A stretch of DNA of 21,786 nucleotides. Source: a virus. The notes under the pieces are model-generated. The model ran no database searches, had not been told where the DNA came from, and saw nothing but the letters and a program-made list of their open reading frames with translations. How positions within the stretch are numbered: position 1 is the stretch's first letter; each line of letters opens with the position of its first letter. Position numbers and translations under genes: made by a program. Shown one piece after another: positions 11,225 to 21,246 of this stretch. The stretch spans positions 1 to 21,786 of the IMG/VR virus record IMGVR_UViG_3300033149_003895; one strand, written 5' to 3'.

Positions 11225-12130
11225 CTATGCCAGCGTGATCGGCGGCGTCAGACCGTCCTCGCTCCCCAGTGCCACGAACTCGACGCGTTGCGTAATTCGC
11301 GCATCGTTCCGCCCCGGCAGGTGCACATCGCCCTGCGTGTACAGCAGCCGCGGCAGCGTGAACGTCGCCACGTTCACTCCCCGGGTCAGCGTCAGCGTCA
11401 GAGCTGCCTCCGTCCCGCTTACGAAGTCGTCGTACACCGCGCTGTCCACAAAATCGCGGTCGAAATACCCGCTGCACCGAATCCCGCTCAGGTTGTACAG
11501 CTCAGTCGGCCCCGGCCCGGGCTCCAACCGCAGACCTTCCTCTGGGTCCTCCAGCACATTGTCCACCACAATCTGCAGCCTCTCGCAGTTGACCTCCGCC
11601 GACAGCCCGCTGCCGCCTGTCTCGAGCTGAACCTCGGCCTCCCGGTACACATACGGCGGCCCCACCGGCATCGTCGGACTGGGCGTCGTTCCTGTCTCTT
11701 GATCTAGCGCCACCACATCCAGCGTGCACACCACTGGCTGACCCTTGACGAACTCGAAGGTCGCCTGTCCCACCTTGCTGTCCGTCAACTTCTTCACCGC
11801 GTTCACGCAGTCAATGAGCACCGACGCCCACTTCCCCTGGTTGTCGCCGTCTCGCGTCTGAATCCATGTCAGCAGCTCCGTCAGGCTACCCGGCATCAAC
11901 GGCACTCGCACCCGGCCCTCGGCCCATTCCCCTGCCGAGTAATACGATGTTTGGTAGTCCCGTTGATCTGCCATGTTCACGATCTGGTAGTTCAGCCGTT
12001 TGCTCACCGTATCTGCCGCTGTCGTCCCTCCCTCTATCAACGGCAGCCATGTCGTCGGACTCACGAACGTCCCCTTCTCCGTCTGCAACCCAAAGCCAAA
12101 CGCGCCTTCCTTCGCCAGTGCGGCTGGCAT
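11225..12130 (-). CDS. Major tail tube protein, 301 aa
   Basis: The tail tube subunit polymerises into the hollow tail through which DNA passes. The N-terminus, MPAALAKEGAFGFGLQTEKGT, is typical of siphovirus tube proteins (a conserved Phe-Gly-x-Gly-x-Gln/Glu start followed by TFVSPTTWLPL). A beta-rich core follows, with strands such as YREAEVQLETGGSGL and AALTLTLTRGVNVATFTL, ending VEFVALGSEDGLTPPITLA. It stands between the tail terminator and chaperone genes, the standard order, and no sheath gene follows, supporting a non-contractile tail. GGAGGTG lies seven bases before the ATG, a strong ribosome-binding site fitting a highly expressed protein. The stop is TAG. Hairpins flank it on both sides. 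Confidence 0.8.
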   Translation of the reverse strand: MPAALAKEGAFGFGLQTEKGTFVSPTTWLPLIEGGTTAADTVSKRLNYQIVNMADQRDYQTSYYSAGEWAEGRVRVPLMPGSLTELLTWIQTRDGDNQGKWASVLIDCVNAVKKLTDSKVGQATFEFVKGQPVVCTLDVVALDQETGTTPSPTMPVGPPYVYREAEVQLETGGSGLSAEVNCERLQIVVDNVLEDPEEGLRLEPGPGPTELYNLSGIRCSGYFDRDFVDSAVYDDFVSGTEAALTLTLTRGVNVATFTLPRLLYTQGDVHLPGRNDARITQRVEFVALGSEDGLTPPITLA

Positions 12131-12248: not shown

Positions 12249-12938
12249 CTACGGCTCCCAGGCCTCCAGTCTCTTTGCCACCAGGTCAATCTGGGCGATG
12301 TCCACGCGCTCCGCTGCCTGCTCCCGCCAGCGCGCCAGCCGATCGCTCTCCAGCGTGACCCCGATTACCTGTGAGCACCATGCACTGCCTCCCAGGTAGC
12401 TGTCCGCCATCAACAGATTGAACAGCCTCTCCACTTCCTCGATCAGAGCCTCGCTCCCCTGCTCTCCAGCATGCTGCGGACGCACGTAGAACACCGACAA
12501 CCGGTGCTCCTGCTCGAAAGACCGATTCGTTCCCTCGCCTGGCTGCTGATCCACGCTGACCGGTTGAACAATCACACAAGGCAGCTTTGAGCCCCAGGGC
12601 GTCGCCAGAAAGTCCAGGCCTCCCTGAGCCACTAACCGCACGTCGCCCAGCGGTGGATCCGCCAGCCGCACCCGTCCCTTCCGCGACACCAGCAGCGGCC
12701 CCGCAATCACATCCTCCAGTTCCAGCCTCTCCAAACCGTTCCGCCCTGCCACCGCCGTCGCGACCGGCCCGGTTTCATCGTCCAGCAGCTCCACGCTGTC
12801 CCCGCTGGCGAATAACTGATTGCTGCCCATCATCGCCGTGCTCGAGTTCTCCAGGTCCGCTGTTAGCAGCACCGCTCCCTGGCACAACAACCGCACCGCC
12901 TCAGCCACCTCGTTCACGTGCAGCATCTCGCTCCGCAT
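12249..12938 (-). CDS. Tail terminator protein (gpU/gp17-like) with beta insertion, 229 aa
   Basis: The frame is open to 12977, but the ATG at 12938 has AGGAG seven bases upstream. The second half fits a tail terminator: LPCVIVQPVSVDQQ, then FEQEHRLSVFYVRPQ, a helix (ALIEEVERLFNLLMAD) and a closing strand/helix DIAQIDLVAKRLEA. These small alpha/beta proteins cap the tail tube and dock to the head. The first half carries an extra beta module at residues 40-95 (ASGDSVELLDDETG, then ERLELEDVIAGPLLV) not needed for the fold and resembling the insertion in the head-closure protein encoded just upstream. Gene order supports the assignment; sequence alone is moderate evidence. Confidence 0.66.
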   Translation of the reverse strand: MRSEMLHVNEVAEAVRLLCQGAVLLTADLENSSTAMMGSNQLFASGDSVELLDDETGPVATAVAGRNGLERLELEDVIAGPLLVSRKGRVRLADPPLGDVRLVAQGGLDFLATPWGSKLPCVIVQPVSVDQQPGEGTNRSFEQEHRLSVFYVRPQHAGEQGSEALIEEVERLFNLLMADSYLGGSAWCSQVIGVTLESDRLARWREQAAERVDIAQIDLVAKRLEAWEP

Positions 12939-13047
12939 TTCCTGGCTCCTAACGCGCTCGCAACATCTTGCCGACAACCCACACCGCTCGCTGACACCCT
13001 TTGCCCCTCTGCTCTGATGGCGTGGAATCTGTGGCCGGGAGAGGGAC

Positions 13048-13064
13048 CGGGAGTGAGACTCCCG
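13048..13064 (-). terminator. Short perfect hairpin between head-closure and tail-terminator genes
   Basis: Plus-strand CGGGAGT and ACTCCCG pair over 7 bp around a 3-base loop (GAG). It begins 16 bases after the head-closure stop codon and about 110 bases before the next ATG. No T-run follows on the minus strand. It is the weakest of the intergenic hairpins but lies in the same relative place as the others. Confidence 0.45.
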
Positions 13065-13079
13065 TCTCTGCAGCCGCCC

Positions 13080-13628
13080 TTACTCCGGCAGCTCCTCCAG
13101 CAGCGCCCGCATGTGGTGTCCCGCTCCTGCCTCGTCCTCCACCGTCAGCACTCGGTATGCCCGAAGCTGTGTAACGTCACTCCCTGCCCCTAGCGCTGCC
13201 GCCAGCGCCGGCTCGATGGTCAACTCCTCCGCCTTGACCTCAACCACCACTCGCTGCTGCGCTTCGCCGCTGTCCTGCAGCTCGATCAAATCCCCTGGCC
13301 TGAGCTCCCCCGCGTCGCTCACTCTCACCACCGTCGCTCCCGCCTCGGCCGCACTCGCCAGTTCCGTCTTCAGCCCCACCTGCTCGACCCGGTAGTTTGG
13401 ACCCAGTTCCGTCGGCGCCACATACATGAAGTGCGTCGCCTGGGCCGCTTGTCCCAGCACACCTCGCTCGGCCTGTGCGGTCGCCGGCGACACTCGAGCC
13501 TCCAACTCGCCGGCCGTCGTCGCAACATACTCCGCATCCGCCGGACTCAGCACCCCATCCAACGCCACAGTCGGTCGCTTGATCCGCACCCGATGGCATA
13601 GTAGCGTCTCAAATGCCGCCTCAGTCAT
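13080..13628 (-). CDS. Head closure / head-tail adaptor protein with beta insertion, 182 aa
   Basis: The start (LLCHRVRIKRP) and the end (YRVLTVEDEAGAGHHMRALLEEL) match the plan of SPP1 gp16-like stoppers: a small beta barrel that seals the connector after DNA packaging. The family is usually near 110 residues; this one is 182 because of an extra module at about residues 88-157 (RPGDLIELQDSG, VVVEVKAEELTIEP), inserted before the last core strand. GGAG stands five bases before the ATG. It follows the gene ending in the connector domain and precedes the tail terminator gene, the standard neck order. It is one of only two genes here ending in TAA. Confidence 0.74.
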   Translation of the reverse strand: MTEAAFETLLCHRVRIKRPTVALDGVLSPADAEYVATTAGELEARVSPATAQAERGVLGQAAQATHFMYVAPTELGPNYRVEQVGLKTELASAAEAGATVVRVSDAGELRPGDLIELQDSGEAQQRVVVEVKAEELTIEPALAAALGAGSDVTQLRAYRVLTVEDEAGAGHHMRALLEELPE

Positions 13629-13667
13629 CGCAGCTCCCTGCTCTCCGGCACGATCCTTGTCTCAAAG

Positions 13668-13698
13668 CCCGAGGGCGGGATCACCTCCCGCCCTCGGG
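13668..13698 (-). terminator. 13-bp perfect GC hairpin before the head-closure gene
   Basis: Arms CCCGAGGGCGGGA (13668-13680) and TCCCGCCCTCGGG (13686-13698) pair perfectly around a 5-base loop. It lies 35 bases after the stop of the adhesin-connector fusion and about 40 bases before the head-closure ATG. It is the most stable hairpin in the window. The T-rich tract of an intrinsic terminator is missing, so partial termination or mRNA 3'-end protection is more likely. Confidence 0.68.
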
Positions 13699-13733
13699 GT
13701 CCTCCAGGCCACTGGCGCAGCTCTCCACCCCTG

Positions 13734-16700
13734 CTAAACCGCGCTCGCCCTCATCGCTCGATACCGCGCCGCTGCCGCCTCCACATCCGCCAACCAGCTC
13801 TCGATCGCCGCTGCCTGTGGCCCTCCGGCCGCGTACGTCACCGCGTAGTCCCCGATCCGTTTGCTCGCAGCCCCGCCGCTGTCCGCCGCGCTTGCCCGCG
13901 CCAGCAGTTGGCTCGCCGCCAGCTTCGCCTGAGCCGCCGAGACCTCCGCCGGCGGCGTCGTGTACCCCCACGTCGCCGTTACCCGTACGTTCCGCACGCC
14001 CGCCGGGAACTTCGTTCCCCACGTCGCGCTCGGCCTCAGCCGCACATAGCCCGCTCGGCCATATACTGCGTAGTCCTCCGCCGGCACCTCCTCGCCGTCA
14101 ACTGCCAGGCTGCTCACGCCCTCCAGCGGCCAGGCACCCTCGCGGAACAAGAACAAACAGTCATGCCCCGTCCCGTCTACCTCCAGCTCCGCCTCTCGGT
14201 GCTCCTCGAAGTCTCGGCCCGCCAGCGAGTCCATCTGCGCCTTCGTCACCGGCAGCAGCAGCTCCACGCGCTCCTCAATCTCGTCCGCGTCACCCAGCGA
14301 GCTCAAGTCAAACCCCTGCAGTAGCTCCATCACCTCGTCCGCAGTGCAATACGACTTACTCCCCACCAGATCGCTCATCCCAAACGCTGTCTCGACTGCC
14401 TCCGACGCGACACCCGACTCGTTCCGCACCGCCACTGCTACGTAGTAGATCTCGCTGGCCTCCAGCGCCTCGCCCGCATACACTCCGCTCTGCTCGCTCG
14501 ACGACACCCAGCCGCTGTCCCACAGGTCGTACTGCCCCGCCGCCAGATTCCCCGCCGTCGAGGCCACCATGATCCGGTACGCCGACTGCGCCTGCCCCTG
14601 GGGATCATCGAATGTCCACGTCATCACTGGAGCCGCCGCCCTCACGTTCGACGGCTCTGGCTCGCCCTCCACTAACAGATCTGTGATCGCCGGTGCCGAG
14701 TATCCCACAACCTCCCACGCATACAGCCTTGGTGTCTCATCCGCTGAACCGCTGCGCGACAGCTCGAACTGGAATACCAGCTCCTCCTGATCGGCTAGCC
14801 CGCTCAGATCCTGCCCCTGCCACGTCACCTCCACGGCCGTGCCGTCCTCGGTCACAAGATCACACTGCCCCAGCCCGTACCCTTCCAGCTCTTCGTGGCT
14901 GGCCGCGTCGAGCACTGCCACCCGCAGCGTTCCCCCGCTGGCGCCGGGTCCGAAGTTCACCCTCAACGCCCGCCACCCGTCTGCCGGCCGGCCTATCGCG
15001 CATGTCTGGCTATAGCCGCTAACCTCGCCCTCCGCCAGCTCTAACGCTGTCTCGCGGTCCACCCCTATCGTACCCACTACGTACCCGTCATAGGTGCCGC
15101 CCTGGACGGATACGAAGTAGTACCGCGTATCCGCGTAATCAACTGAGGTCAAGATCGCGCACGAGTACGACCCCTCAAAGTCGCTATACGGAAGCCAATC
15201 CGCCTCCACCCGGCTCGAGACCACGCCCTCGCTCGTCCAGTACAGGTCGTTGTCGCCGTAAAACTCCCCCGTGAGCTGAACGTTATCCCGAGCGCGCAAC
15301 ATGAACGTCGGAGCATGGCATGAGGCATGAACCGGGAAGAAACCGTGCGGATGACCTCGGGCCCCTCGGCACTCCGTCAGATTGGAGCTGAACCCCAGGG
15401 CCCCCTGGCGCAGAATTTGATACCCGGGCGCGGGCGTCCGCGTCTTCATCCGTCCGTAGCCGATGTACCGCTCCGCCTCGCTACGCGCATACGGGTTCCG
15501 CTGGAACATCATCGCTGTGTCCAGATTTCCCAGCTCTCCGTCGACACCCCAGCTCGGGTGTGTCAGAATATGCGGCCCCTCAGCCCGCTCCGTCCCGAAG
15601 CTCGCCGATAACCCCGTCACCGAGAACGCGTGATGACCGTCCAGGTCGTACTGCTTGTACCCGTCGCATACCAGCGCGTACGTTCCGTCGTGACACCAGA
15701 CCGGCGTGGGCTTGATCGCGTAGCTGTCTGCGTCCGAAACGTATCCCATCGCGTCCACGCCCAGCGAGCGCAGTAGCTCCGTCACGTTCAACGGCAACCC
15801 ACTCAAGCTCGTGTCCTCGGCCCAGGTCAATCCCAGATCGTCCGAGTAGTACCTCGCAATCCAGTTCGCTCCGTTGCTGTCTTGCGCCCGGGCCCACGCC
15901 CACATCCGCCCTGCACTATCCACCTCGTACGGCTGCAACGCCGCATTCGATACCATCCACTCCGGCGCGCTCGCTGGCGGCCATGTGCACTGCTGCCAGC
16001 CCCCCGGCTTGAACGTCGCCAGCTCGGTACCCCCAAACTCCCACTCCGTGCTGTCCCGCGACACGTAACCGGCGCTGTTGTCCCGGTGCACCCATCCCCG
16101 GTGCTGCCTCGTCACCGGCACAAACAGACCCTTCGTCCGCGATGTCCGCCGCAAGCAGTCCTCCCGATACACGTCGAACTGCTCGATCCTCAGCGTTACG
16201 TCGCTCTCAAACCCACCCGGCGTCGAGATCGCGAACGTCCAGTTCCCCGCACCCGCATACTTGATCGCCGAGCTGTCCACCGACAGGAACCCGCCGCCGT
16301 TGTACTCCGCATCGTAGCACCCGAACTCCAGCGTCAGGAACCGATACATCCGCTCCGGATCGTTCCCAAACGTCTGGCCCGTTGCGTTACCGGCTCCGGT
16401 GTTCCGATCCGAAGCGGTCAAGGCAAACGTGTACGCTCCGCTACCGTCCGTCACTTTGTTGGCGTAAATCCGGAAGGGCCCGATCCGTACGTACTTGTCC
16501 GTGTCGTTCAGACCGCCCGTCGCCCACACCTTCGCCCGGCACACCCAGCCCTTACCCCCGCCGTGGCTGTAGTACCCCCGGTCATTCGGCATGTCAAACG
16601 CCACCGTCCCGTGCGTCTGACCTGCCTCGAACGTGATCACGGCGTGCTTCGCCTCGTGATCCAGCGTCTGGTGCGAGGCGTCCTTGTCCCACGTGCTAAC

Positions 16701-17480
16701 CTGGTTCAGCTCATACCGGCCCTCCTCGGTGCCGAATAGGAACCTCACCTCGCCCCCGGCGGTCTCTTCACCACCCACCTGAACCAGAGCGTTTCCGGCG
16801 CCGCTGCACGTTGCCGTCGCTGTCCCCACTGCGTAGTCCGCGTCGAAGCTCCCGCTGTCGAACCCCGCCCGGAACAGCAGCGATCCTTCGATATCGCCCG
16901 ACCTCGGCAGGTGTCGCTCCATCCGGTCGCGCAGCGCCGTGATCTGCTCGCTCGTGGCCACCTCATCCCAGATGCCCAGGCCGTCCAGCCAGCCGAGCAT
17001 GTACTTCGTCGCCAGCGAGCTACCCGGCGCGCCACATCCCAGCGCCAGGTGCGCCGGTTCGGCGTCCCACGCCGTCAGCCCGCTCAGCGTCGCATCCTTC
17101 CGGCCGTCCTTCCACAGCTCGATCACACCAGTCCCGGCTCCGCCCGTGAAATCCCACGTCAGCACTAGGTGATGCCATTCCACCGCCGCCCAGTAGTTCG
17201 TCTCGCTCGTGGACCAGTACTCAACCGTCTGCGCTGTTGACGATGCCCCATTGCGCCTGTACTCCACGTACAGCCTGCGGTTCATCGTGTATACGCTCAG
17301 GTGGTTGCTGTCCGTGCCGTCACCGAACGACACAATCGGGTTCTTCCAGTTCACACCCGTGAAACAATCGTGCATCAGGCTGACCCAAACGCTCAAGCTG
17401 CCCTGCTGCGTCAGAGCAACGTTCCCGTCGTTGGCCACATACCTCAGGTCGCTGCCGACCCCTGCAAACAGATGATGCAT
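13734..17480 (-). CDS. Fusion: LamG / Asp-box / Fn3-like adhesin joined to gp6-like head-tail connector, 1248 aa
   Basis: Domains in order: a LamG/concanavalin-like domain (about residues 25-185; EWHHLVLTWDF, GVIELWKDG, GWLDGLGIWDEVATSEQI); beta-sandwich regions to about 460; a propeller-like region (about 465-740) with an Asp box, YSDDLGLTW, near 545; further beta regions; a fibronectin-III-like domain (about 930-1033; PVMTWTFDDPQGQAQSAYRI); and from residue 1035 a typical gp6/YqbG-like connector: SYCTADEVMELLQGFD, then VTATWGYTTPPAEVSAAQAKLAASQLLA and KRIGDYAVTYA. Connectors of this kind form a ring below the portal and normally stand alone at 100-200 residues. The junction is at a Met (14378) with no ribosome-binding site close enough, so a single polypeptide is favoured. 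The ATG at 17480 has GGAG nine bases upstream. Confidence 0.82.
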   Translation of the reverse strand: MHHLFAGVGSDLRYVANDGNVALTQQGSLSVWVSLMHDCFTGVNWKNPIVSFGDGTDSNHLSVYTMNRRLYVEYRRNGASSTAQTVEYWSTSETNYWAAVEWHHLVLTWDFTGGAGTGVIELWKDGRKDATLSGLTAWDAEPAHLALGCGAPGSSLATKYMLGWLDGLGIWDEVATSEQITALRDRMERHLPRSGDIEGSLLFRAGFDSGSFDADYAVGTATATCSGAGNALVQVGGEETAGGEVRFLFGTEEGRYELNQVSTWDKDASHQTLDHEAKHAVITFEAGQTHGTVAFDMPNDRGYYSHGGGKGWVCRAKVWATGGLNDTDKYVRIGPFRIYANKVTDGSGAYTFALTASDRNTGAGNATGQTFGNDPERMYRFLTLEFGCYDAEYNGGGFLSVDSSAIKYAGAGNWTFAISTPGGFESDVTLRIEQFDVYREDCLRRTSRTKGLFVPVTRQHRGWVHRDNSAGYVSRDSTEWEFGGTELATFKPGGWQQCTWPPASAPEWMVSNAALQPYEVDSAGRMWAWARAQDSNGANWIARYYSDDLGLTWAEDTSLSGLPLNVTELLRSLGVDAMGYVSDADSYAIKPTPVWCHDGTYALVCDGYKQYDLDGHHAFSVTGLSASFGTERAEGPHILTHPSWGVDGELGNLDTAMMFQRNPYARSEAERYIGYGRMKTRTPAPGYQILRQGALGFSSNLTECRGARGHPHGFFPVHASCHAPTFMLRARDNVQLTGEFYGDNDLYWTSEGVVSSRVEADWLPYSDFEGSYSCAILTSVDYADTRYYFVSVQGGTYDGYVVGTIGVDRETALELAEGEVSGYSQTCAIGRPADGWRALRVNFGPGASGGTLRVAVLDAASHEELEGYGLGQCDLVTEDGTAVEVTWQGQDLSGLADQEELVFQFELSRSGSADETPRLYAWEVVGYSAPAITDLLVEGEPEPSNVRAAAPVMTWTFDDPQGQAQSAYRIMVASTAGNLAAGQYDLWDSGWVSSSEQSGVYAGEALEASEIYYVAVAVRNESGVASEAVETAFGMSDLVGSKSYCTADEVMELLQGFDLSSLGDADEIEERVELLLPVTKAQMDSLAGRDFEEHREAELEVDGTGHDCLFLFREGAWPLEGVSSLAVDGEEVPAEDYAVYGRAGYVRLRPSATWGTKFPAGVRNVRVTATWGYTTPPAEVSAAQAKLAASQLLARASAADSGGAASKRIGDYAVTYAAGGPQAAAIESWLADVEAAAARYRAMRASAV

Positions 17481-17656: not shown

Positions 17657-18592
17657 CTACTGTGCCACGTTGATCGCCAACACCACTGCGTCGTCTTCCT
17701 CGAACTCGCACGCCACCCGCGTCGTGATCGCATACTGATTCACGCCGCGCATGATGTCCCGGTCCTTGTCAATCCGTACCTCGCGATGAATCCCCCACAC
17801 CAGGTTCGACTTCGGGGTCAGCAGACCGAAGCTCAGATCCGTACCCCCGGTCCCCTCGATTCCGTCCAAATCCGTCGGAATCAGCGGCACACTCACCACC
17901 GGAATCCCGAATACCGTCAGCGGCGCATTCTCCAGCAGGAACTTCGCACCCACCACGGTATCGCTCTCCGCGATCGCCGCGCGGTAGCTCTCCACCACCG
18001 CCGGCGCTAGGTAGAACCGCAAGTCCGAGTAGTTCCGCTTATACTTGTTCGGTAGCGCCTTCACCATGTCCACGAACAGCGCCTTGTCTACGCTGTTGCC
18101 CTGCTTGTCCACCTTGTGCCCGTCCTCGGCCAGCACCCGCCAGCCATTCATCAGCGCCAGATACGAGTCCCCGCTGCTCTCGTCTCCCAGCAGCGCCAAC
18201 TCCTCCAGATCCGTCGCTGTCTGCTTCGACATCGCCCGAATCAGCGTCTCCTCCGCGCGGCTCCCCTCAATGTTGTCCTCCAACATCTCGTACGTGACCT
18301 CGAACGGCGTGATCACTCCCGCCGCCGACAGGGACACCTTGCTGAAGGTCGGCTCGCTGAACGTCCCCGGAGCCACGCCCTCCGTCTTCGGCTGACTCAC
18401 CCGGCCGCTCGTCGAGATCTTGTCAATCTGCACCGTTGGCGACTTCATCCGCACCACACGCGCGTCCCGCAGCATCACGCTCTGGTCCACCACATAGTCA
18501 ATGAACCGATCCGCCTGGCCCGGGTTCAGAAGACCGCCGCTCGCCAGATCACCTGTGTCAATCGCCTTCGCCAACAGCTCATCAACGTTCAA
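17657..18592 (-). CDS. Major capsid protein, HK97 fold (PBSX XkdG-like), 311 aa
   Basis: The shell-forming protein. Helix-rich opening (ELLAKAIDTGDLASGGLLNPGQADRF as a loop and helix), an extended E-loop-like region (RMKSPTVQIDKISTSGRV), a long spine-helix region (EETLIRAMSKQTATDLEELALLGD, about residues 112-140) and a C-terminal P-domain ending ITTRVACEFEEDDAVVLAINVAQ fit HK97-fold capsid proteins. No long N-terminal delta region is present, so scaffolding may come from the coiled-coil tail of the preceding protease. An in-frame TGA two codons upstream forces the start to TTG at 18592; GGGGG lies about nine bases before. The gene overlaps the protease end by 11 bases. The stop is TAG. Confidence 0.84.
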   Translation of the reverse strand: MNVDELLAKAIDTGDLASGGLLNPGQADRFIDYVVDQSVMLRDARVVRMKSPTVQIDKISTSGRVSQPKTEGVAPGTFSEPTFSKVSLSAAGVITPFEVTYEMLEDNIEGSRAEETLIRAMSKQTATDLEELALLGDESSGDSYLALMNGWRVLAEDGHKVDKQGNSVDKALFVDMVKALPNKYKRNYSDLRFYLAPAVVESYRAAIAESDTVVGAKFLLENAPLTVFGIPVVSVPLIPTDLDGIEGTGGTDLSFGLLTPKSNLVWGIHREVRIDKDRDIMRGVNQYAITTRVACEFEEDDAVVLAINVAQ

Positions 18593-19397
18593 CCCTCAGT
18601 ACCCCCTTCCAAAACTCATCCTCGCGAGACCTCGGCATCTCTTGACCCGGCAGCGACTCCGGCGCGCCCTGCTTCTGCGCCCGCGCCTCCAGCCTCGTCA
18701 CCGCGGCCCCCACGACCTTCGCCAGTGCCTCCGCATCTCGCCTCAGCTCCGCCAGACTTCCCTGCAGCGCCTCCATCTCGGCCGGCGCCTCCTCCGTCCG
18801 ACCGCTGCCCGCCTGCTCCTCCTTTCCGAACGGCCACCGTGCCCGCAGCGCCCTCAGCGCCGCCTCCATCAGACCGCTCGGCTCTTCCTTCTCCACGCTC
18901 TTGGCCATCGCCCGCAGATACGTGTCCGCATTCGCCGCCTTCCCCGGCCGGCACAGCGCCACGTGATCCAGCTCCACTTCATCAATGAACCGCGTCTGTT
19001 CCCCGTCCTCGTCGGTGCCCCAGTACGCCTTCAGCACCCGGCCTCCCACGCTGAGCTGATACTGCCTCCCGGCCAGCAACCGGTCGAACAGTCTCCGTGC
19101 CTGCGGATTGCTCTCGTCCAGACGACCCGCAACGTAGAAAGCCTCGTTGTCTGCCCGCGTTTCCTCGACAGTCCCCAGCTCTTCCAGTGGCCCCGCATTG
19201 TGCGATGGCAACAGGTCTATCCCTGCATGCCTTGCCATGGACTCGATTGCCCTCGGCGTCATCTTCTCGTGCTGCTTGTCCACGCTCGTCGAGCTCGCAA
19301 TACCCTCAAACCTCATCTCTCCCCCGTCGTCCTTCCACACCCGGGTGATCGGTACCCCGAACTCGAACCCCGCGTCCTTGCCACGCCACTCAGACAC
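18582..19397 (-). CDS. Prohead protease, XkdF-like (S78 type), with C-terminal coiled-coil scaffold-like region, 271 aa
   Basis: The protease part spans residues 15-165: GIASSTSVDKQHEKMTPRAIESM, the His box LLPSHNAGPLEELG (His66), the Ser segment YQLSVGGRV (Ser116) and ELDHVALCRPGKAANADTY, which match the PBSX XkdF / HK97-type prohead protease plan. The last 100 residues are Glu/Ala/Arg-rich with a heptad helix (EMEALQGSLAELRRDAEALAKVV), as expected of a scaffold. One protein may therefore both shape and mature the prohead. The start is GTG with GGAGGTG six bases upstream. It sits between portal and capsid genes, and its last codons carry the capsid start. Confidence 0.82.
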   Translation of the reverse strand: MSEWRGKDAGFEFGVPITRVWKDDGGEMRFEGIASSTSVDKQHEKMTPRAIESMARHAGIDLLPSHNAGPLEELGTVEETRADNEAFYVAGRLDESNPQARRLFDRLLAGRQYQLSVGGRVLKAYWGTDEDGEQTRFIDEVELDHVALCRPGKAANADTYLRAMAKSVEKEEPSGLMEAALRALRARWPFGKEEQAGSGRTEEAPAEMEALQGSLAELRRDAEALAKVVGAAVTRLEARAQKQGAPESLPGQEMPRSREDEFWKGVLRVER

Positions 19398-20040: not shown

Positions 20041-21246
20041 TCACGGCTCTTGCATCGGTGGCAGCCCCTGCTTTGCCCGGATCTCGTTGACGGTCCACGC
20101 ACCGAGCCGCGCATAAATCCTCGCGATCTCTGCCTCCTCGCGCGCCTCACCGAGGTCCATCTCGCGGAACTTGAACTGCCAGTCCCTTACGCCCATCTGC
20201 TCGGCGATCATCCGGTTAATCCGGAACTCGATCCGCCTCTGTTCCGGCCTCACCACCTGCTCCCGGAAGGTCTTGTCCTGGTCCTTCGAGTTCGCCAAAT
20301 TGGCATTCTCCACGATGGTGATCTTGCTTGGCGGCACCCGGTGCACCATCAAGATCTCGTCCCGGTTCGCTCGGCGATACGCCAGAAATGCGGCATCATC
20401 GGTCCGCTGCATCCCCAGGGGCTCCAGCCGCACTTTGACCTCCGACCCCGGCACGTCCAATACTAGCGTCTTGTGGGCCTGGCCCTTGATCTCAGTCTCC
20501 ATGTACTGCCGTATCGCCGCCAGCAGATCATCATCCACGCGCCCGCCCTCGACAATGATTGCCATGCGCGGCACGGCATTGTGCTCGAAGAAATCAATGT
20601 TGTACTCCCGCGCCGCTCGATCACCCGCCGTCGCCGCGATCGCCGGCACCACATCCGGGATTCCGTAGAAGCTCGACTGCGGCGTGTACTTCCGGAAGTG
20701 CAGCACCTCCGTCTGGCGCCGCTTCGTCTCCGGGTCCCGCAGCGGCGTCGGGTCACCCAGTCGCTTGAAATGCCTCTTCCGCTGCTCCCGAATCTGCACG
20801 AATCCGTTCCCGTCGCTGTTCACGCGCACCGTCGTCCCCGGCATGTGATAGAACCCGTCAATCTCCTGGGCTCCGTTGCGCGTCACCTCCATGTAACCGT
20901 TCCCCAGCACCTCCACATCGGTCCACACCGACCGCATCACTTCCGTGAACGTCATCGCCGGGTTGCACCGTTCGAACAGCCGCTGCAGTCTTTGCAAGCT
21001 CTCCGGTGACGCCTCCTCCTTGCTCGGTACGAACCGGTAGCCAAGCCCCACGATGTTCGTGACCTTCGCGTCCACGCAAGCCTTGTGCGTTGAATTCGTC
21101 TCGTACAGCTCAGCCAGCGCGTCGAGGTCGTACGGCGGCTCTTTTACTGCGCCGCTGGCGTACTCGCTCTGCCAGATCGTCTCCGGCAACTGCTCGCTCC
21201 TGCTCAGTCCCCCACTGCCCACGATATGCGCCTTGATCGCTTCCAT
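20041..21246 (-). CDS. Portal protein, PBSX/P2 gpQ family, 401 aa
   Basis: The portal forms the dodecameric ring at one capsid vertex through which DNA is packaged and ejected. Typical features: the opening WQSEYASGAVKEPPYDLDAL, helix ALAELYETNSTHKACVDAKV, wing strand segment VEVLGNGYMEVTRNG with LHFRKYTPQSSFYGIPDVVPA, the AAREYNIDFFEHNAVPRMAIIVEGG segment, and the stem/crown part IMVHRVPPSKITIVENANLANSKDQDKTFREQVVRPEQRRIE that is characteristic of this family. The length fits. The ATG at 21246 has GAGGTG about four bases upstream. It ends in TGA. A 640-base gap separates it from the protease gene. Confidence 0.9.
   Translation of the reverse strand: MEAIKAHIVGSGGLSRSEQLPETIWQSEYASGAVKEPPYDLDALAELYETNSTHKACVDAKVTNIVGLGYRFVPSKEEASPESLQRLQRLFERCNPAMTFTEVMRSVWTDVEVLGNGYMEVTRNGAQEIDGFYHMPGTTVRVNSDGNGFVQIREQRKRHFKRLGDPTPLRDPETKRRQTEVLHFRKYTPQSSFYGIPDVVPAIAATAGDRAAREYNIDFFEHNAVPRMAIIVEGGRVDDDLLAAIRQYMETEIKGQAHKTLVLDVPGSEVKVRLEPLGMQRTDDAAFLAYRRANRDEILMVHRVPPSKITIVENANLANSKDQDKTFREQVVRPEQRRIEFRINRMIAEQMGVRDWQFKFREMDLGEAREEAEIARIYARLGAWTVNEIRAKQGLPPMQEP

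Follow-up and report, generated by a model that had tools for sequence, protein, structure and literature searches.

An adhesin-like arm fused in frame to a phage head-tail adaptor, and a candidate strand-exchange joint in its two-gene relatives from Candidatus Zipacnadia

The 21,786-nucleotide stretch of DNA analysed here (the window) encodes a head-tail adaptor whose N-terminus continues, in one open reading frame, into an adhesin-like protein of about 1030 residues. It is likely, in our judgement, that this is a real fusion which places an arm, running from a LamG domain to an Ig domain, on the adaptor N-terminus for display at the neck, with one arm per subunit; that strand complementation does the same work in relatives, where adhesin and adaptor are separate genes; and that the covalent form is probably ancestral.

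Results

The fused frame lies in a phage structural gene cluster

The window is the entire contig C410 of a 5.5 Mb metagenome-assembled genome, and the host class is Candidatus Zipacnadia (alias candidate division WS1), Armatimonadota. Its minus strand carries the portal, prohead protease and capsid genes, the fused ORF and then the tail genes:

20041..21246 (-), portal protein (PF04860 6e-46, phrog_12 1e-71)
18582..19397 (-), prohead protease (PF04586, phrog_80)
17657..18592 (-), major capsid protein, upstream of the fused ORF (PF05065 2.5e-11, phrog_1623 1e-88)
13734..17480 (-), fused adhesin-adaptor ORF, 1248 aa (full-length homology to two adjoining genes of relatives)
13737..14354 (-), head-tail adaptor core, residues 1043-1248 (phrog_442; the model of an orthologue matches known adaptors)
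13080..13628 (-), gene after the adaptor, in the head-closure (stopper) position and kept in relatives (position and homology to G257 ORF 14; no clear family)
11225..12130 (-), tail protein, probably the tail tube by position (phrog_290 2e-11)

The uninterrupted 1248-codon frame described in a sequence-only reading of this DNA is present (17480-13734, minus strand, no internal stop), and its adaptor half falls where it should in the order portal-protease-capsid-adaptor-tail. Elsewhere on the contig, 9233-6873 and 6819-5923 correspond to a single gene of about 940-1070 aa in relatives of the class; the two halves, both retained, are separated by a 54-nt spacer and the second has its own ATG.

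The C-terminal half is a head-tail adaptor

Residues 1044-1244 match phrog_442 with an E-value of 2e-23 when the whole protein is searched and 1e-24 for the C-terminal part. The connector previously placed at the C-terminus, a proposal that was to be dropped if these residues matched no connector profile, is thus found there. The AlphaFold model of the window's own adaptor half, built without relatives, is of low confidence. A model of the orthologous adaptor from L085 (pLDDT 87) matches the adaptors of Mycofy1 (Z 13.2), phage 812 (Z 12.3), RcGTA (Z 11.2) and T5 (Z 10.1); HK97 gp6 is not among the fold matches listed for this model, an absence that does not amount to exclusion. The first 11 residues of the modelled orthologue are disordered. 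Residue 1 of T5 p144 aligns at about residue 13 of the model, and therefore an N-terminal strand precedes the common adaptor core. At 1248 aa the window frame is not a stand-alone adaptor of ~200 aa, and the open frames of related adaptors in the class do not exceed about 300 aa.

The arm ends in a complete Ig domain that contains Met1035

The following features were located in the arm:

16911..17393 (-), LamG / concanavalin-type lectin domain, about residues 30-190 (Laminin_G_3 in homologues; pentraxin and arabinanase chains of the PDB by sequence)
15822..15845 (-), Asp-box-like motif SDDLGLTW, residues 546-553 (sequence)
14691..15059 (-), beta-sandwich-like domain before the Ig domain, about residues 808-930 (AlphaFold strands, pLDDT 71-96 in ten-residue blocks)
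14364..14699 (-), Ig_Rha78A_N-type domain, residues 928-1039 (Pfam and structural match)
14376..14396 (-), last strand of the Ig domain, V1029-M1035, VETAFGM (AlphaFold; in relatives the adaptor gene opens with its counterpart)

The domains first proposed for this region held up to different degrees. Laminin_G_3 is matched in 12 of 18 homologues but stays below threshold in the window protein itself. The suggested Asp-box propeller comes down to the one Asp-box-like motif, evidence that stops short of a propeller; homologues carry SEDGxHF at other places. The LamG domain, as the sole hint, suggests by analogy that the arm may bind glycans. The last adhesin domain, which had been called Fn3-like, proved to be of the Ig_Rha78A_N type: residues 932-1032 match PF25788 (Ig_Rha78A_N; Pfam, 2e-18), and residues 928-1039 superpose on the solved rhamnosidase Ig domain 6i60 with a Z-score of 18.5 and an rmsd of 1.2 Å over 111 aligned residues. 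Profile and fold agree, with the last strand in the same chain.

This placement bears on Met1035, which had been taken for the ancestral start of the connector. In the AlphaFold model of residues 739-1248, V1029-M1035 forms the final Ig strand with good local confidence and, since the alignment with 6i60 also runs through residue 1039, Met1035 lies inside the Ig domain. Together with the alignment to relatives, these results led us to reject Met1035 as an ancestral start. The nearest GGAGG was rightly judged too distant from the ATG at 14378 to drive a separate start; we measure a spacing of 20 nt, against ~19 before, and there is no ribosome site within 13 nt of this ATG in the window.

Adhesin and adaptor are two genes in the relatives

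Of 291 genomes of the phylum, 56 gave hits to the adaptor family in a family search, and among all 291 the window alone has a strong adaptor match within a frame of >1000 aa; large frames with weak phrog_442 matches elsewhere (858-1461 aa, E above 1e-5) were counted as chance. With a profile of close adaptors, 31 of the 46 class genomes gave a match, mostly as one strong copy. About two dozen Zipacnadia clusters encode a homologous adhesin after the capsid gene and directly upstream of the adaptor, and every one of these has adhesin and adaptor as two genes. A set of 18 pair junctions comprises 16 overlaps of 7 nt (ATGGTAG), one overlap of 4 nt (ATGA, in L072) and one gap of about 250 nt. An adhesin encoded by the connector gene itself, as originally described, is true of the window frame but peculiar to its lineage, because the relatives found are all two-gene.

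Finding these relatives took an alignment query, as single-protein searches gave none for the fusion. Peptide patterns and single-protein tblastn found no close relatives of the fusion in viral, phage and genome collections, with one weak Ig-only match, and a further 37 adaptors of viral contigs, more distantly related, included no long fusion.

The surrounding clusters showed several features of their own. Most of the Zipacnadia genomes searched contain a phage-like cluster running from terminase to endolysin (e.g. L184-L203), usually in one copy; its trees follow host family, and its neighbours in three genomes (G253, G255 and G264) are yidC-jag-type genes. It is possibly a domesticated, gene-transfer-agent-like element. 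L061 and L062, from MAGs of two different genera (G266 and G267), are almost identical in their cluster DNA, which may reflect recent transfer or binning contamination. The adhesin gene of L188-L189 (G264) is fragmented into several frames, with an undamaged adaptor junction. L018 holds a 540-aa ORF (12519-14141) with an adaptor-like start (NYITEDDVDNW) and seemingly a large insert, so that here an adaptor would have gained a domain by another route.

The Ig domain of the relatives is divided over the gene border

The relatives' adhesins end after ...VRNSEGVWSEEW, with the Ig domain still without its last strand, and their adaptors begin MVAxGVFxTGxL, ahead of the conserved YC where the core starts; VFSTGLL and IFGMGLW are examples of the strand at this position. 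A motif of this kind also closes the Ig domain of cellular rhamnosidase-like proteins of the class (e.g. WSEPAMWSMGLL, WSMGLL), and the spacing from the conserved Trp to the strand is ~4 residues longer in the relatives than in a cellular domain.

Adhesin C-termini were joined to adaptor N-termini as probes, not as proteins. In each of the five pairs tested, joining the adhesin to its own adaptor moved the end of the Ig profile match from position 92 to 102-105 of 105. The accompanying gain was 2.5-10.6 bits in all five, modest (2.5-4.4) in four of them, and these relatives are not independent. Control joins to other adaptor N-termini gained 0-0.8 bits, with matches ending at 92-94 (4/4). Adaptor residues 3-12 have a mean identity of 0.59 in the relatives, against 0.47 in the core; being disordered alone yet conserved, the modelled N-terminus fits the behaviour of a segment that folds on a partner.

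The same truncated adhesin occurs in G250 (L213), where it ends ...GVWSG and is followed by a non-adaptor gene. The product of this gene, a 141-aa protein with a weak BppU_N match, starts MKMPVFATGLL and so carries the strand VFATGLL; joining it to the adhesin moved the end of the Ig profile match from 91 to 104. This second partner is the best sign, from sequence comparison, and suggests that the strand is a plug and not an accident of adaptors. We put at about even the chance of a modular plug, in which an adhesin with an Ig domain short of its last strand and a ring protein that donates it are encoded by overlapping genes, the ring protein being the neck adaptor across Zipacnadia and another structural protein in G250, with the covalent one-gene form in the window.

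A proposed arrangement at the neck

The relatives strengthen the link between adaptor and adhesin, through both the overlap of the gene pair and the division of the Ig domain over the gene border. Of the earlier interpretation, then, the in-frame fusion of an adaptor to an adhesin-like protein stands, whereas the start at M1035 and the encoding by the connector gene outside the window lineage do not. From the fusion and the split domain we infer display of the arms at the neck. In the window, every adaptor subunit would carry an arm covalently at the head-tail neck, one adhesin to each because the adaptor is fused in frame to it, and the joint would be the Ig domain, its last strand running straight into the adaptor. 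Adaptors are dodecameric under the portal in the solved cases examined (PMC7296036, PMC11313276, PMC12886913). By analogy with these rings of 12 the window adaptor would have the same ring size, and if every N-terminus bore an arm the neck would have as many as twelve appendages. In the relatives, the N-terminal strand of the adaptor would complete the Ig domain of the adhesin by donor-strand complementation, and such strand exchange probably holds the arm on the neck ring.

Because the missing Ig strand lies in the adaptor frame of the relatives, which implies an earlier in-frame fusion, the covalent form seen in the window is, on the gene comparison, probably the ancestral one. In trees the window is an unresolved deep lineage among families that each form one clade; as a separate deep lineage, it leaves an older form in the window neither supported nor excluded.

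One gene or two: weighing other explanations

The relatives carry signals that separate the two genes. All 15 ATGGTAG pairs use GGA for the glycine that lies upstream of the adaptor start, a count drawn from related sequences that overstates independence, and GGA makes up 12% of glycine codons in these genes. This codon yields AGGAG or GGGAG-like sites upstream of the adaptor start, and the base preceding TGG is always A in these pairs, creating the ATG. In L074, where an insertion parts the genes, the glycine codon is GGC and both the GGA and the A before TGG are lost. Given this site and the fixed A, and the loss of both in L074, the relatives' adaptors most likely start at the overlap ATG. 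The same features speak against the idea that in the relatives, too, a fusion is produced, with ribosomes slipping to the -1 frame within the 7-nt overlap. In favour of this, the -1 frame is that of the adaptor and a sequence resembling a ribosome site is found upstream, but a slippery heptamer is absent from the overlap, the adaptor frame of several relatives contains a TGA shortly ahead of the ATG, and both the preserved A and the loss of the two features where the genes are separated fit a start instead; we rejected frameshifting, which seems to us very improbable. At the homologous place the window has GGT and no ribosome site, start codon or stop. A sequencing or assembly slip at the junction would work by a single base: with one G fewer in TTTGGG, the adhesin would end TTT GGA TGA and the adaptor would start at the overlapping ATG at 14378, a tidy ATGA overlap like that of L072, in keeping with relatives that are all two-gene and with a window junction of which no second copy was found in viral contigs. 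Yet a single base cannot explain why the site, start and stop (the GGA, ATG and TAG of the relatives) are all missing from the homologous position. The start so restored would have no useful ribosome site ahead of it and would fall several residues downstream of the homologous start, leaving an adaptor without the strand common to all relatives; the remaining window genes that were compared keep collinearity with the relatives in a single frame, except for the one split with a spacer. A slip is therefore distinctly unlikely.

A real fusion might still be accompanied by free adaptor, from an internal start at M1035 or from cleavage, giving a mosaic ring with few arms. The ATG at 14378 and the encoded prohead protease (19397-18582) offer the means, and twelve arms of 1030 residues would be bulky. 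However, the lack of a ribosome site close to this ATG and the position of M1035 in a folded strand count against it, as does the overlap of arm and adaptor genes in the relatives, which favours coupled amounts; on balance a mosaic ring is possible but somewhat doubtful. The adhesin could also decorate the head, its gene merely adjoining that of the adaptor and the window fusion being an accident of no structural meaning. IMG/VR relatives of this capsid do have other genes, some of them decoration-like, in the interval from capsid to adaptor, but such neighbours would not account for an Ig domain that is split with its missing strand on the adaptor, conserved over the class, or for the same strand motif on another partner in G250, and we regard head decoration as unlikely. 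A true fusion with arms displayed at the neck remains our preferred reading.

Discussion

One fused version and about two dozen split versions of the same pair indicate which proteins touch, and where. To our knowledge, no phage adaptor has been described that itself carries an adhesin, though neck appendages are known in several phages, and a limited literature search found none.

The RcGTA adaptor, T5 p144, phage 812 gp96 and the Mycofy1 adaptor resemble that of the window in gene order after the capsid and, through its modelled orthologue, in fold (Z 10-13). Siphophage and GTA adaptors share a helix bundle, an attachment domain and an adaptor loop (PMC7296036, PMC11313276, PMC12886913) and are small, stand-alone proteins, whereas the window adaptor is preceded by a 1030-residue arm and those of its relatives by an extra N-terminal strand. 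The neck passage structure of lactococcal 936 phages places carbohydrate-binding modules around the head-tail connector (PMC6669499), as proposed here. It consists, however, of separate proteins forming their own collar, with neither an adaptor fusion nor an Ig-domain joint; the window adhesin is no separate collar-forming product, being fused to the adaptor, while that of the relatives is separate. T4 wac, phi29 gp12 and XM1 gp40 are neck appendages like the proposed arm, but separate gene products (PMC10491603), and in phage 812 an unidentified whisker density surrounds the adaptor ring, again from separate gene products (PMC12886913). The head spikes of RcGTA are capsule-binding fibres on a phage-like particle, borne by capsid pentamers and not by the adaptor (PMC7296036).

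For donor-strand complementation in phage virions we found nothing relevant in the open-licence literature. In chaperone-usher pili, an Ig-like domain short of one strand receives it from the N-terminus of a partner subunit. Here, in contrast, the partners would be a phage adhesin and an adaptor, with no chaperone seen, and strand exchange is proposed from the genes alone. The comparison nevertheless suggests strand-exchange coupling as a way to clip adhesins onto the neck of a phage.
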